Origin: Amycolatopsis coloradensis
Lineage (GTDB): Bacteria; Actinomycetota; Actinomycetes; Mycobacteriales; Pseudonocardiaceae
Direction of reading: 5' to 3'
DNA: 64,000 nt
Assembly: GCF_037997115.1 (NCBI RefSeq)
Contig: NZ_CP150484.1
Coordinates: 7,263,589 to 7,327,588, forward strand
In this document: positions 15,043-39,481 of the stretch, piece by piece
Numbering within the stretch: position 1 is the first letter of the stretch
Layout of the letters: each line of letters begins with the position of its first letter
Made by a program: the position numbers and the translations under genes
The notes under the pieces: generated by a model
The model's input: the letters and a program-made list of their open reading frames with translations, nothing else
Told to the model about the DNA's origin: nothing
Database searches by the model: none

Positions 15043-16556
15043 TTCTTTCCTCCCAGCTCCGGAACCTCGTGCACCAGCGAGCCACCGTTGGCGGCGTCGC
15101 GTGCGACCTCGTAGGCGGCGCCGACGCGGTACAGCCGGTCGTCGGCCATCGCGGGGGCCATGATCTGGAGGCCGACCGGCAGGCCGTCCTCGTGCGACAG
15201 TCCACTCGGGACACTCATCGCGGCGTTGCCGGCGAGGTTCGACGGAATGGTGCAGAGGTCCGCCAGGTACATCGCCATCGGGTCGTCGACGCGTTCGCCG
15301 ATCTTGAACGCCGTGGTCGGCGTGGTCGGCGAGACCAGCACGTCCACCTTTTCGTAGGCGGCTTCGAAGTCCCGCGTGATGAGCGTGCGGACCTTCTGCG
15401 CCGAGCCGTAGTAGGCGTCGTAGTAGCCCGAGGACAGCGCGTACGTGCCGAGCATGATGCGGCGCTTGACCTCGGGGCCGAAGCCCTTCTCACGGGTCAG
15501 CGACATGACCTCTTCGGCGCTGTGCTCGCCGTCGTCGGACACGCGCAGGCCGTAGCGCATGGCGTCGAACCGGGCGAGGTTCGACGAGCACTCGCTCGGC
15601 GCGATCAGGTAGTACGCGGGCAGCGCGTAGGTGAAGTTCGGGCACGAGACCTCGACGACCTCGGCACCGAGCGCGCGCAGCTGCTCGACTGCGGCCTCGA
15701 AGGACCGCAACACGCCCGGCTGGTAGCCGTCGCCGGCGAATTCCTTGACTACGCCGACGCGGACGCCCTTGAGGTCACCGGTCAGGCCCTGGCGGGCCGC
15801 GGCGACCACCGGCGGGACCGGCGCGTCGATCGAGGTCGAGTCCATCGGGTCGTACCCGGCGATGACCTCGTGCAGCAGAGCGGCGTCGAGCACCGTCCGC
15901 GCGCAGGGACCGGCCTGGTCGAGCGACGACGAGAAGGCGACGAGACCGTAGCGGGAGACACCGCCGTACGTCGGCTTCACGCCGACGGTGCCGGTGACCG
16001 CGCCGGGCTGGCGGATCGAGCCACCGGTGTCGGTGCCGATCGCGATCGCGGCCTCGAACGCCGCGATGGAGGCCGAGGAGCCACCGCCGGACCCGCCGGG
16101 GATACGGGCGTGGTCCCACGGGTTGTGCGTCGGGCCGAACGCGGAGTTCTCCGTGGAGGAGCCCATCGCGAACTCGTCCATGTTGGTCTTGCCGAGCACC
16201 ACGACACCGGCCTCGCGCAGCTTGCGCGTCACGGTGGCGTCGTACGGCGGGAGCCAGTTCTCCAGGGTCTTCGAACCGACCGTGGTCGGGATGCCCTTGG
16301 TGGTCAGCACGTCCTTGAGCGCCAGCGGGACACCGGCGAGCGCCGACTTCGGCGCCTTGCCCTCGGCGACGTCGGCGTCCACCGCGCGGGCGGCTTCGAG
16401 CGCGCCCTCGGTGTCGACGTGCAGGAAGGCGTGGATGTGGTCGTCGACCTCGGCGATCCGGTCCAGGTGGGCCTGGGTGACCTCGACGGCCGAGACCTCT
16501 CGGGACTGGATCTTCTCCGCCAGCTCGGCGGCGGTCAGCTTGATGAGTTCGGTCAC
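15039..16556 (-). CDS. gatA: Asp/Glu-tRNA amidotransferase subunit A
   Basis: The amidase subunit that releases ammonia from glutamine for GatB. The catalytic Ser-cisSer-Lys triad is visible: Lys in GVPLALKDV (about 80), the [11 protein letters not shown] loop, and the nucleophile in [13 protein letters not shown] (about 178). At 505 residues it is full length. GTG 16556 overlaps the gatC stop by 4 bp. M. tuberculosis has pfkA between gatA and gatB; here they are fused into one overlapping unit without it. Confidence 0.97.
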
Positions 16557-35079: not shown

Positions 35080-35931
35080 ATGCGTTCCTTGCCCGGCCCC
35101 GTCGCCGTGATCACGGACTCGACCGCCTGCCTCCCCGCCCCGGTCGCCGAACGCTGGGGAATCGGCGTCGTTCAGGTCCAACTGCAGGTCGGAGAGCAGT
35201 TCGACGAAGAGAACCGCTACGACCGCGAGGACATCATCGGCCATCTGCGCGCCGGGACCCCGGTGAAGACGGCGCCGCCCGAGGTCGCCGCGTTCTTCTG
35301 GGCGTTCCAGGACGCCGCGAGCAAGGGTGCCTCGGCGATCGTCAGCATCCACATCTCGGGCCGGATGTCGGAGACGGTGAACGCCGCCCGCGAGGCCGCT
35401 CAGCAGGTGAGCGTTCCCGTCCACGTTCTCGACAGCGGGACCACCGGGATGAGCCTCGGTTTCGCGGCGACCTCGGCGGCCAAGGTCGCCGCCGCCGGCG
35501 GGCAGGCGCCCCGGGTGATCGACGCCGCCGAACGCCGGTTCCGCGGCAGCCGGGAGATCCTTTACGTCGACACGCTGGAGTTCCTGCGCCGCGGCGGCCG
35601 GATCGGCGCCGCGCAGGCCTTCCTCGGCTCGGCGTTCTCGATCAAACCCCTGCTGACGGTGAAGAACGGCGAGGTCGCCCCGCTGACCCGGGTCCCGGGC
35701 CAGCGGCGGGCGCTCAACAAACTCGTCGACCTCGCGGTGGACTGCGCGGGCGATCAGGACGTGGAGGTCGCCATCACCCGGTTCGGCCCGGACGAACGCG
35801 ATCTCGAGATCGGCGGGCGGCTGCGGGCGCGGCTGCCGCAGATGGTCGACAGCACCCTGGTGGACGCCAGCATGATCCTCGGCGCCCACCTCGGTCCCGG
35901 CGCCATCGGCATCACGGTGTCGCCGGTGTAG
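35080..35931 (+). CDS. DegV family fatty-acid-binding protein
   Basis: A 283-residue DegV protein: VAVITDSTACLP at the start, SIHISGRMSETVNAAREAA, VLDSGTTGMSLGF and DTLEFLRRGGRIG. These proteins bind a fatty acid and, in Firmicutes, feed fatty-acid kinase; no fakA is visible here. ATG 35080 gives the conserved start; the ORF from 34999 runs through the etf promoter region. Its 3' end overlaps the next convergent gene by 20 bp. Confidence 0.88.
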   Translation: MRSLPGPVAVITDSTACLPAPVAERWGIGVVQVQLQVGEQFDEENRYDREDIIGHLRAGTPVKTAPPEVAAFFWAFQDAASKGASAIVSIHISGRMSETVNAAREAAQQVSVPVHVLDSGTTGMSLGFAATSAAKVAAAGGQAPRVIDAAERRFRGSREILYVDTLEFLRRGGRIGAAQAFLGSAFSIKPLLTVKNGEVAPLTRVPGQRRALNKLVDLAVDCAGDQDVEVAITRFGPDERDLEIGGRLRARLPQMVDSTLVDASMILGAHLGPGAIGITVSPV

Positions 35932-36334
35932 CCCGCTTCGAGGGGATCAGCGCCAGCACCACCGGGAGCACCGCGCCCAGCGCCGTCGTCACGACGATCA
36001 GCACCTGGTCCACCGGCTCGAAATGCGAGACGTGGCCGAGGTGGTAGAGGAAGTGCGGCAGTCCGAAGAGGAAGGTCGCGAGCGCCGCGAGCCTGGCCAC
36101 GGCGGTCGTCCCGATCACGGCGGCGCCGATCAGGATCACGGAAAGCGCCAGGTTGAGGCCGCCGAAGTCGCGGATCAGGTGTTCGTTGAAGGGGCCGTCC
36201 ATCGCCACCCAGCCGGTGCGGAACCCCGGGAAGTCCCGGTAGAAGCCGTCCGGGCCGAACAGCGGCCACAGCCCGACGGGCAGTTCGATGAGACCGAAGA
36301 CGACGAGCAGTACGCGCGTGAATGTCCGTTGCAT
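35912..36334 (-). CDS. Small four-segment membrane protein
   Basis: A 140-residue protein with four membrane segments (TRVLLVVFGLIELPVGLWPLF, LNLALSVILIGAAVIG, LAALATFLFGLPHFLYHLGHV, VLIVVTTALGAVLPVVLALI). No family recognised with confidence. The start is uncertain: ATG 36334 has AGGAGG only 1 nt upstream, too close for normal use. TTG 36370 is an alternative. It overlaps the degV 3' end by 20 bp, on the opposite strand. Confidence 0.6.
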   Translation of the reverse strand: MQRTFTRVLLVVFGLIELPVGLWPLFGPDGFYRDFPGFRTGWVAMDGPFNEHLIRDFGGLNLALSVILIGAAVIGTTAVARLAALATFLFGLPHFLYHLGHVSHFEPVDQVLIVVTTALGAVLPVVLALIPSKRATPATP

Positions 36335-36420
36335 ACCTCCTGGACTGGACAGCGCCGCGAAACGTGACAAGCCGGTACGGCACGCGCGCTTCGAACACCT
36401 GGTCTGCGATTATGTTGATT

Positions 36421-37600
36421 ATGACCAAAGATCTCGCCGAACTGCTGGGTACCCAGGAGACCGTCAACCTGGAGTTCAAGCAGTCCGGCAAGGATCGGGA
36501 CGTGCTTCGCAAGGCGATCTGCGCGCTGGCCAACGACCTGGCGCAGAAGGGCGTCGGACACCTGCTCATCGGGGTCGACAAGCACGGAGCTCCTTGTTGA
36601 AGACGTCGATACCAGTGATGACGAACTACTTCGCTACACGGACCTTCGCGAGGACGGTCAGATTCTGGATCGGCCGTCGATGACCGTCGAGGCGGCCGAG
36701 TACCGGGGCAAGCCGATCGTGCACATCGAGGTCCGGACGTCCTCGACGCCTCCGGTCAGGTACAAGGGGATCACCTGGGTTCGCCCGGGACCCACCACCC
36801 GCAAGGCCAGTCGCGATGACGAAAGGGTCCTGAGCGAACGCCGGAGAGCGGCAGATCTGCCGTACGACAGCCGTCCAGTGGAGATCGCCACAATCGACGA
36901 CCTCGACCTGGCTCTGTTCAGGTCCGACTACCTCCCCTCCTTTGTGGCGCCCGAGGTGATCGAAGAAAACGGTCGCTCGGCCGCTCAACAGCTCACCTCA
37001 CTGCGCCTCGCCGGCCCCGAAGGAAAACCCACAGTTTTAGGCTTGCTCGTTCTAGGCTTGGATCCGAGCGCGCATCTGCCTGGCGCCTATGTACAGTTCA
37101 TCCGTTACCGAGGAAAGGACTTGGACGCACCGATCGCCGACGATCAGGAAATGCGTTCGAATCTCATCGGCACCGCAACCCGACTGGCCGCAGTGCTTCG
37201 CGGCCACCTCCACACGAGTCTGACGGAGGTCCAGGGGTTTCGTGAAGAACAGGCGCCTGACTACCCCTTCGAGGCCCTCCGAGAGGCCTGCATGAACGCG
37301 ATCATGCATCGGAACTATGAGAACTCGAACGCCCCGGTGCGGATCGCTTGGTTCGATGACCGGATTGAGATCACCAATCCGGGCGGGCCTTTCGGCCAGG
37401 TCCGAGCCGACAACTTCGACCGCGTGAACGACTACCGGAACCCATCATTGGCAGCCGCTATGAAGTCGCTCGGGTATGTGAACCGATTCGGCAGGGGAAT
37501 CGGAAGAATTCGCGCAGCTCTTGAACGCAATGGAAACCCCGAACCCGAATTCGTCGTGGACGCATCCTCATGGTCTGTCACTATCAGGAGGACCAAGTGA
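36421..37600 (+). pseudogene. Frameshifted AlbA_2 (Schlafen-like) / HATPase_c_4 gene
   Basis: The gene is open in two frames. 36421-36597 encodes MTKDLAELLGTQETVNLEFKQSGKDRDVLRKAICALANDLAQKGVGHLLIGVD, an AlbA_2 N-terminus, and stops at TGA 36595. One base out of frame, the reading resumes around 36585 (ELLVEDVDTSDDELL) and runs to 37600. It ends with an HATPase_c_4 module (EALREACMNAIMHRNYENS, DDRIEITNPGG, RFGRGIGRI), as in COG2865 proteins. A single extra base near AAGCACGGAGCTCC explains it: mutation, sequencing error or programmed shift. It contains a TTA codon at 37037-37039. Base composition and codon use look unlike the neighbours. Confidence 0.8.
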
Positions 37601-38646
37601 CCTCGGTCGCCATGTTCAACAATAAGGGCGGCGTAGGCAAGACGACGCTAACTTACCATCTCGCTCACATGCTTCAGCGACTGGGAAAACGGGTACTCGC
37701 CGTCGACCTCGATCCTCAGTCCAATCTCACCGCGCAATTTCTGGACGAGGACGAACTCGCGATTCTGTGGCACGAGCCGCAGAGCCCGGCGTGGTCCGCG
37801 GAAACACCGAAGTATCGGGTCTGGAGTCCTGTCACCGAAGACACAGGAACGATCGCGACCGCTCTCACTCCGATCCGAGAGGGCCTGGGCGATATTGCAC
37901 CTTCGCAGCCGGTGCGGATCACCGACGGGCTGTGGTTGCTCCCAGGCGACCTGGAGCTGAGTTCCTATGAAGACCGACTCTCGGAGGCTTGGGGCAAGTG
38001 CTTCACCGGTGATCCAGCCGCTCTCCGGGCTACGACGGCGTTCCATCGACTGATCGCCCATGCACAACGCGAGGTCGATGCCGAGATCGTACTCATCGAC
38101 GTAGGCCCGAACCTGGGAGCCATCAACAGGGCGGCACTCCTCTCCGCGGACACCGTTCTCACTCCGCTGGCCGCAGACCTGTTCTCGCTACGCGGGCTCC
38201 ACAATCTCGGCCCCACCCTGCGGAGTTGGCGAAAGACTTGGCAGCAAACCGTACTTCCGAACGCGCCGTCCTCGATATCCACCCCGCCTGGCGCCATGCG
38301 CCCACTCGGCTACGTGATCAGGCAACCCGTCATGCACCTAGACCGGCCGGTCAAGGCCTATCAGCGTTGGCTGGATCGCATTCCCGCCGTCTATCGCGAC
38401 GCCGTGCTAGACAATGACACGTCCGCAGATAGCGACTTCGAGATCGCCACGATGCGGAACTACCAGAGCCTCATGCCGCTGGCACACGATGCCCGTAAGC
38501 CGATGTTCGAGTTGCGTTCAGCGGACGGCGCCCTGGGCAGCACGCAGACCCTCGTACAACGCTGTCATCAGGAGTTCAAGGCGCTGTCGGAAACCCTGTT
38601 GGACCGCCTGGCAGCACCTGAGACGTCGACCCCGAGGCCCCGGTAG
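37597..38646 (+). CDS. ParA-family ATPase
   Basis: A 349-residue ParA/MinD-type ATPase. The deviant Walker A is FNNKGGVGKTTLTYHLA (residues about 6-22), the A' motif VLAVDLDPQSNLTAQFL, and Walker B VLIDVGPNLGAINRAAL. The insert between them is longer than in plasmid ParA, and the C-terminus (DRPVKAYQRWLDRIPAVYRDAV...) is extended. GTG 37597 overlaps the upstream stop (GTGA) and has a strong AGGAGG at 37586-37591. No parB or centromere repeats are adjacent, so plasmid partition is unlikely; it probably works with the AlbA_2 protein. Confidence 0.85.
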   Translation: MTSVAMFNNKGGVGKTTLTYHLAHMLQRLGKRVLAVDLDPQSNLTAQFLDEDELAILWHEPQSPAWSAETPKYRVWSPVTEDTGTIATALTPIREGLGDIAPSQPVRITDGLWLLPGDLELSSYEDRLSEAWGKCFTGDPAALRATTAFHRLIAHAQREVDAEIVLIDVGPNLGAINRAALLSADTVLTPLAADLFSLRGLHNLGPTLRSWRKTWQQTVLPNAPSSISTPPGAMRPLGYVIRQPVMHLDRPVKAYQRWLDRIPAVYRDAVLDNDTSADSDFEIATMRNYQSLMPLAHDARKPMFELRSADGALGSTQTLVQRCHQEFKALSETLLDRLAAPETSTPRPR

Positions 38647-38707
38647 GCGAAGCTCGCAAACCGAGAGTGACACGCGGGTCGAAGTGACCGGCCGGTAGGG
38701 TCGCGGC

Positions 38708-39481
38708 GTGACCACCCCAGCCACCAGGGCCGAAGCGCTGCACCTCACCGGTGAACGCACCGTGCCGGGCATCGCCGAGGAAAACTATTGGTACCGCCGC
38801 CACGAGGCCGCGTATCAAAAGCTCCTGCCCCTGTGCGAAGGCAGGACCGTCCTGGAAGCCGGGTGCGGTGAGGGCTACGGCGCCGGGCTCATCGCCACGG
38901 TCGCCGAGCGGGTGCTCGCGCTCGACTACGACATCCCCACCACCGAGCACGTCGCCCGCCGCTACCCCGGCATCGGCGTGGCCAGGGCGAACCTGGTGTT
39001 CCTGCCGCTGCGGGACGCGTCGGTCGACGTCGTCGCCAACTTCCAGGTGATCGAGCACCTCTGGGACCAGGGTGCCTTCCTCGCCGAATGCCGCCGCGTG
39101 CTCTCCCCCGGCGGACGGCTGATCGTCACCACACCCAACCGGCTGACCTTCACCCCGGACAGCGACACTCCGCTCAACCCGTTCCACACCAGGGAACTCG
39201 CACCGTCCGAATTGGACGAACTGCTGCGTGAAGCCGGTTTCGAGGTCGAGACGCTGCACGGCCTCCACCACGGCGAGGGCGTCGCGAAGCTCGACGCCAA
39301 GTACAACGGCTCGATCATCGACGCGCAGCTCGACGTCGTCATGGGGCAGCTGCCCGGGCAGGCGACCTGGCCGGCGGAACTGCTCGCCGATGTCGAAGCC
39401 ATCCAGGCCGCGGATTTCGCCATCCACGGTGAGGACCTCGACGCCAGCCTCGACCTCGTGGCCGTGGCGGTGCGCCCATGA
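38708..39481 (+). CDS. SAM-dependent methyltransferase (Rv3030-like)
   Basis: A 257-residue class I methyltransferase: VLEAGCGEGYGAGLIA (SAM motif I), VLALDYD, then VVANFQVIEHLWDQGAFLAECRRVLSPGGRLIVTTPN. It matches Rv3030 in place and in having GH57 and GT4 genes downstream; in mycobacteria this locus serves methylglucose lipopolysaccharide. GTG 38708 lies 6 nt after TAGGGT (38696-38701), so the transcript is probably leaderless. Confidence 0.87.
   Translation: MTTPATRAEALHLTGERTVPGIAEENYWYRRHEAAYQKLLPLCEGRTVLEAGCGEGYGAGLIATVAERVLALDYDIPTTEHVARRYPGIGVARANLVFLPLRDASVDVVANFQVIEHLWDQGAFLAECRRVLSPGGRLIVTTPNRLTFTPDSDTPLNPFHTRELAPSELDELLREAGFEVETLHGLHHGEGVAKLDAKYNGSIIDAQLDVVMGQLPGQATWPAELLADVEAIQAADFAIHGEDLDASLDLVAVAVRP

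Follow-up and report, generated by a model that had tools for sequence, protein, structure and literature searches.

Why should a gene for a ParA-family ATPase, with no parB beside it, be coupled to a gene for a Schlafen-type protein in an actinobacterial chromosome? The question is raised by 64,000 nucleotides of Amycolatopsis coloradensis DNA (contig NZ_CP150484.1, positions 7,263,589 to 7,327,588; hereafter the window), taken from a genome assembled as a single contig of 9.06 Mb. The two genes, here called gene A and ParA, form a small cassette within it. A preliminary description of this DNA, made from its letters alone, had not recognized the pair as a known partition system and considered a defence module possible. 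We believe that the pair is probably a horizontally moving two-gene immune cassette, abortive or toxin–antitoxin-like in type, with A as a putative Schlafen-type RNase effector and ParA as its presumed restraint or sensor, because it recurs in three phyla and lies sometimes within known anti-virus gene clusters.

The pairing of the two genes is sporadic in its presence and nearly strict in its linkage. Gene A, whole or damaged, lies directly upstream of ParA at 24 of the 26 loci found with ParA in the genome_contigs set, and these 24 loci span Actinomycetota, Pseudomonadota and Cyanobacteriota. The two exceptions are a locus at a contig edge (L024) and a Eubacterium locus (L025), whose ParA is 31% identical and has another neighbour. 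A was detected in 11 and ParA in 34 of 394 genomes from the class; all ten genomes with both carry them adjoining (Fisher p = 6e-11, uncorrected for kinship), and the one A without a ParA (L105) is a fragment of some 255 residues. Both genes are present in the same 3 of 80 genomes of the window's genus, and in another genus (g28) A was found in 10 of 295 genomes, each time with ParA beside it. Recurrent pairing, whose absence the preliminary description had named as one finding that would overturn its proposal, is what these counts reveal.

Of 42 pairs from the three phyla, 41 have a ParA start that overlaps the A stop by exactly four bases and one has an overlap of a single base; for each pair the script took the start codon closest to a four-base overlap. 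The distances among A proteins run parallel to those among ParA proteins, with a correlation coefficient of 0.90 for 30 pairs and 0.83 for 19 actinobacterial pairs; none of 2000 permutations reached these values in either set. The gene-call script was a simple one that missed A or ParA at several loci (e.g. L087, L090, L117 and L150) and was used only for picking neighbours.

In the window both genes lie on the forward strand, and gene A is split over two frames. Its N-terminal piece (36421–36600) encodes 59 residues of a Schlafen/AlbA_2 domain (PF04326, E = 2e-7) and then a stop, and its C-terminal piece, after a net +1 shift (36587–37600), encodes the rest of AlbA_2, a middle region and a GHKL ATPase domain (HATPase_c_4; PF13749, E = 7e-21). 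The second frame is open from at least 36587, and its first ATG is at 36680. The pieces correspond to residues 1–59 and 59–392 of an intact 392-residue relative, P0123, with 95% and 96% identity, respectively. The AlbA_2 start and HATPase_c_4 end given to this gene in the preliminary description are therefore both there, though not in one open frame. The frameshift may be a true mutation or an assembly error; unless it is the latter, the window copy of A is likely inactive.

ParA is intact in the window. It encodes 349 residues from a GTG (37597–38646; PF13614, AAA_31, E = 1.2e-28), and this start overlaps the A stop by GTGA (37597–37600) behind an AGGAGG resembling a ribosome-binding site (37586–37591), just as first described. 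An in-frame ATG at 37570 gives the longer mechanical open reading frame of 358 residues; we took the GTG as the start. The nearest named relatives of both proteins are from Amycolatopsis.

The cassette occupies 36370–38672, a length of 2303 bp that includes one copy of a 6-nt flanking repeat, GTGACA (left copy 36364–36369, right copy 38667–38672). It is missing from the close relatives L069, L070 and L071, in which the flanks (92–94% identical) are joined at GAAACGTGACA|CGCG. The suspected cassette of about 2.3 kb within a conserved gene order is thus a precise insert, and it holds the two genes only, the ParA-like ATPase having no ParB for company. No match to the insert was found in any of 20 relatives' loci compared (L067–L086). 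Two of these, L067 and L068, show by eye different hairpin-forming stretches of about 60–70 bp at the point where the window has the cassette. Because of these other small stretches, the insertion point at 36370 may be a hotspot for small insertions. The composition of the insert agrees with the foreign codon use reported earlier. Its GC content is 61.6%, against 69.3 ± 1.9% in 247 windows of equal length (step 250), none of which is as low, and GC at third codon positions is 0.73–0.74 in the cassette genes against 0.86–0.93 in five neighbour genes, leaving out a glycoside hydrolase gene for which the start used was out of frame.

A second precise insertion was found in the same genus. In genome G068 (L088) the pair follows an alanine dehydrogenase gene, it is absent in L187, L195 and L197, and CGTTCTCGCCTGA (13 nt) stands at both junctions. 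Nineteen relatives' loci were compared at this site: three have both flanks joined, 15 the alanine dehydrogenase flank only, and one (L193) that flank with a short piece; the latter 16 are uninformative because the right-hand flank is not kept there. The second insert also measures about 2.3 kb, so that the mobile unit comprises hardly more than the two genes. The repeats differ in length (6 nt in the window, 13 nt at L088), which makes a target duplication of fixed size, and a transposase that produces one, unlikely. A transposon was rejected on this ground and because neither end region has inverted repeats of at least 10 nt. In G068, gene A is immediately preceded by a perfect hairpin stem of 16 bp (GTGGCATATCCCGGCG, about 7601–7636 of L088); at the equivalent place in the window there is no inverted repeat of at least 10 nt. 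Of 39 genomes compared for the insertion site of G070, none but G070 itself has a match to the chosen flanking protein at E = 1e-150. Eight proteobacterial loci, from Gallionella-type environmental bacteria, have the pair between gyrA and serC.

Damage to the pair is one-sided. Of 47 loci, 38 are intact, seven have damage in A only (the window, L006, L007, L021, L023, L108 and L116), two have one deletion running through both genes (L008 and L026), and none has damage in ParA only (p = 0.016). This table excludes L024 and L103 (contig edges), L105 and L125 (A fragment without ParA), second copies of loci fetched twice, and L037 and L038, whose match patterns equal those of L006 and L007 and which were taken as the same genomes. 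Such one-sidedness fits A being harmful without ParA, although assembly errors and kinship weaken the argument.

Several pairs lie among known defence genes. In Micromonospora (L001) the pair separates brxD from brxHI in a type 2 bacteriophage exclusion (BREX) operon, recognized with the PADLOC models BrxC/PglY, PglZ, BrxD and BrxHI, and tblastn revealed the same arrangement at L002–L005, L008, L145 and L147. At L122 a different BREX has the pair between its pglX-like gene and its pglY-like gene, and a single small open reading frame in the opposite orientation separates pglX from A. L095 and L118 have the order A-ParA-McrB-McrC and count nearly as one case because their ParA proteins are almost identical; at L120, whose ParA is closely related to these, a type ISP enzyme is encoded just downstream of the pair. 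The Synechococcus loci L021 and L023 have cas3 downstream (best model Cas3e) and a damaged A, and at L089 a TIR/NB-ARC/TPR gene precedes the pair on the opposite strand.

In sum, 15 of 48 loci have a defence gene (BREX 9, McrBC 2, cas3 2, type ISP 1, TIR 1), a raw count uncorrected for background, from which McrB-like matches of 39–41% about 7–8 kb away at L091 and L119 were left out. The other 33 matched none of the BREX, McrBC, cas3, type ISP and TIR queries; 39 of the 48 have no BREX match. The pair is optional in BREX and not a constant operon member: of the 30 brxD loci covered in one family (from 46 brxD hits), 28 have brxHI next and two have the pair in between. A PADLOC scan of 104 of the 145 flanking proteins from 19 loci matched 152 families, and among the matches listed were Cas3, PDC-S05 and one mad3 model, with two members each. 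Ten selected flanking proteins scanned singly yielded the two cas3 genes. For the window's own proteins, PADLOC-DB gave pAgo-linked models for the C-terminal piece of A (best E = 2.5e-14) and PDC-M28B for ParA (E = 1.4e-8, about 40 residues), and no single system of that database, known or candidate, was matched by both.

The ParA of the pair belongs to a branch with other partners as well. A ParA profile found 15 places in 14 of 348 genomes of the order, with A upstream at seven. At two of the other eight, ParA is followed by a PIN_12 gene (L151, L152) and at four by a HEPN_RiboL-PSP-like gene (L141, L153, L154, L155); the last two are a truncated ParA (L142) and a different ParA (L143). The HEPN match exceeds the curated cut-off only in L141, and what we take to be the relevant motif, Rx4H, is visible by eye in all four HEPN-like proteins. 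Three more ParA relatives, from Eubacterium (L025) and two plasmids (L127, L128), are followed by SIR2_2 genes. The PIN, HEPN-like and SIR2 genes come after ParA in these distant relatives; A precedes it. The defence role considered possible at the outset gains from this exchange of partners together with the positions in type 2 BREX and beside McrBC, type ISP and cas3, the function itself being predicted. The ParA proteins of L153 and L154, which have HEPN-like neighbours, carry KGGVSKTT instead of KGGVGKTT as Walker A. At two distant loci of this branch, L010 and L025, a uvrB-like gene is adjacent or close by. Another ParA of the branch (336 residues) comes from a plasmid of Vibrio campbellii (L126), where it has a recombinase gene on one side and mobile mystery/type I restriction genes on the other; no effector was recognized next to it.

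When 32 ParA proteins are placed in a tree, one group is formed by the Schlafen-linked rows together with three Frankia-like solos, and one each by the two PIN-, three HEPN- and two SIR2-linked rows; all these are separated from two Soj-like proteins encoded in the window's own genome (support 99/98). The tree has several long end branches and small groups; L127 was omitted from a second tree (long branch), and L141 is in neither. The solos come from the 24 of the 394 genomes of the class that have ParA and no A at the threshold; one of the 24 (L038) keeps an A remnant, 20 are represented by loci of family f20, which is Frankia-like from its match to named Frankia contigs, and three more make up the total. 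The loci compared do not include the solo ParA of G190, G277 or G403, nor a second ParA place (52%) in each of G151 and G221. At the Frankia-like loci (L041–L053, L056, L058, L059, L062–L065) ParA is kept with no A beside it, and a gene resembling the maleylpyruvate isomerase family by eye adjoins ParA at the nine with a readable upstream side; for L056 only about 130 bp upstream of ParA is at hand. Because the solos fall within the Schlafen group, A was probably lost in these lineages, and their ParA is perhaps a domesticated switch.

A broader reading can be put forward tentatively, as somewhat short of probable. A branch within the ParA superfamily, separate from the partition ATPases, might be a general bacterial immunity switch whose effectors are interchangeable (Schlafen-GHKL proteins, PIN or HEPN nucleases, SIR2 NADases), with a ParA clade of its own for each effector type. 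The Schlafen version, at least, would hop into defence operons and gaps between core genes as an insert of just two genes, and ATP-dependent DNA binding by ParA would serve all versions as sensor or safety catch. In PMC5379612, the presence of a parA but no parB in a defence region is taken to indicate descent from a plasmid or mobile element. If this branch is an immune switch, such parB-less genes gain a testable function. A DNA-surface ATPase, and not a cyclic nucleotide or protein ligand, would then be a candidate trigger for Schlafen, PIN, HEPN and SIR2 effectors.

Predicted folds and conserved residues indicate how the pair might work. The fold of A residues 1–144 is like that of the tRNase domains of SLFN13, SLFN11, SLFN5 and SAMD9. 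The active site of SLFN13 consists of three carboxylates, Glu205, Glu210 and Asp248, according to PMC5862951. Both glutamates aligned with Glu205 and Glu210 are present in all 41 A proteins, while the third acidic position is D in 33, K in 7 and N in 1, with K in the window's subclade. The ParA residues K10, K15, D37, D39 and D168, the deviant Walker A lysines and the acidic residues of Walker A′ and B, are invariant in 40 of 40 proteins, and the predicted ParA structure has a mean predicted local distance difference test score (pLDDT) of 91. The N-terminal domain of A, the presumed effector, probably cuts RNA, by analogy tRNA, and the GHKL domain would bind ATP and gate the cutting. The coupled ParA would be an ATP-driven DNA-binding dimer and not a segregation motor. 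It could keep A inactive or sense an infection cue, e.g. a change in the nucleoid, foreign DNA or the ATP state, and its release of A would stop translation and with it phage growth. Schlafen proteins are antiviral in animals, and a bacterial version whose control lies in a subunit of its own could therefore reveal how such RNases are restrained.

Of the other explanations, a selfish toxin–antitoxin (addiction) pair, with A as toxin, ParA as antitoxin and no immune role past self-maintenance, survives best, although we consider it unlikely. It would account for the overlapping genes and the asymmetric loss of A, and the HEPN-ParA dyad has been postulated to be a toxin–antitoxin system (PMC3710099); it explains poorly why the pair inserts within BREX operons and beside McrBC, type ISP and cas3, and why A has no plasmid-record match at the threshold used. 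A nucleoid-linked regulator or DNA-repair accessory, placed on DNA by ParA, is less probable again. AlbA_2-HATPase proteins are often annotated as RecG-related or as regulators (source names "ATP-dependent DNA helicase RecG" and "transcriptional regulator"), the C-terminal piece of A matches phrog_12156 "DNA helicase" (E = 1e-36), one pair adjoins uvrB (L010) and eight lie between gyrA and serC. However, the presence of A is sporadic (3 of 80 and 10 of 295 genomes), Pfam reports neither a helicase nor a winged helix-turn-helix (wHTH) domain in A, and the partner is swapped for PIN, HEPN-like or SIR2 proteins.

Slightly more doubtful still is a dedicated accessory that regulates BREX and other restriction systems and does not act alone; the positions within type 2 BREX and beside McrBC and type ISP suit it, whereas many pairs lie apart from restriction systems, as do the window's pair and the eight gyrA-serC loci. 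A remnant of a partition system from a plasmid or integrated element, an outcome that the preliminary description had held against itself, is very improbable despite the family membership of ParA (phrog_164 "ParA-like partition protein", E = 5e-41) and its weak matches in 10 plasmid records (at 30–33%) and 6 phage records, since A has no match in 72,556 plasmid records (E = 1e-30), the insert is of two genes, none of 28 Pfam-scanned neighbour proteins of Schlafen-type pairs gave a ParB or integrase match, and the ParA branch is separate. L128, one of the ten plasmid ParA matches, is on a plasmid with a separate ParA-ParB pair of its own about 3 kb away.

The insert is flanked by genes of the putative etf region, a DegV gene (Pfam) and a gene for 152 residues on one side and by a methyltransferase gene (Pfam), called Rv3030-like in the preliminary description, on the other. 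No Rfam match reached the gathering score within 35800–39300, a promoter scan gave zero promoter-like sites, and terminator-like sites number 3 against 1.9 ± 1.4 in shuffles. A selenocysteine tRNA gene is predicted elsewhere in the window (15941–16033).

Compared with known systems, the coupled ParA shares its fold and Walker motifs with chromosomal and plasmid ParA/Soj partition ATPases but has its own branch, an insert without parB and coupling to effector-like genes. Compared with the SLFN and SAMD9 tRNases, A adds a GHKL domain and a ParA partner, and the window's subclade has the third acidic residue replaced. PMC12839542 describes a linkage to BREX, seen in at least 1017 taxa, of Schlafen-histidine-kinase-wHTH proteins, and it names Schlafen, HEPN and PIN RNases among backup suicidal effectors. 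A resembles those proteins in having a Schlafen-type domain followed by a GHKL/histidine-kinase-like ATPase and in occurring at BREX loci. They differ from it in their wHTH, which the family scans did not report in A, and the main text of that paper does not contain "ParA" as a whole word; here the Schlafen protein has a coupled ParA and also travels as a stand-alone cassette.

The HEPN (MAE_18760)-ParA/Soj ATPase dyad, for which ParA was proposed as the antitoxin in PMC3710099, likewise consists of two genes, one for an RNase-type protein and one for a ParA/Soj-like ATPase. The effector here is a Schlafen-GHKL protein instead, and A precedes ParA, whereas HEPN follows it in the four HEPN-like pairs seen here. 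The closest solved structures to A and ParA are those of the uncharacterised Corynebacterium diphtheriae proteins DIP2311 (3lmm) and DIP2308 (3pg5), at 20–24% identity. Because their locus tags are three apart, this suggests that both halves of a cousin system have been solved separately and never linked. The literature searched, which covered few subscription papers or bioRxiv preprints, held no account of the Schlafen-ParA module, its precise insertions or the exchange of four effectors on one ParA branch. Schlafen genes at BREX loci and the HEPN-ParA dyad are already known; the Schlafen-ParA module is apparently new.
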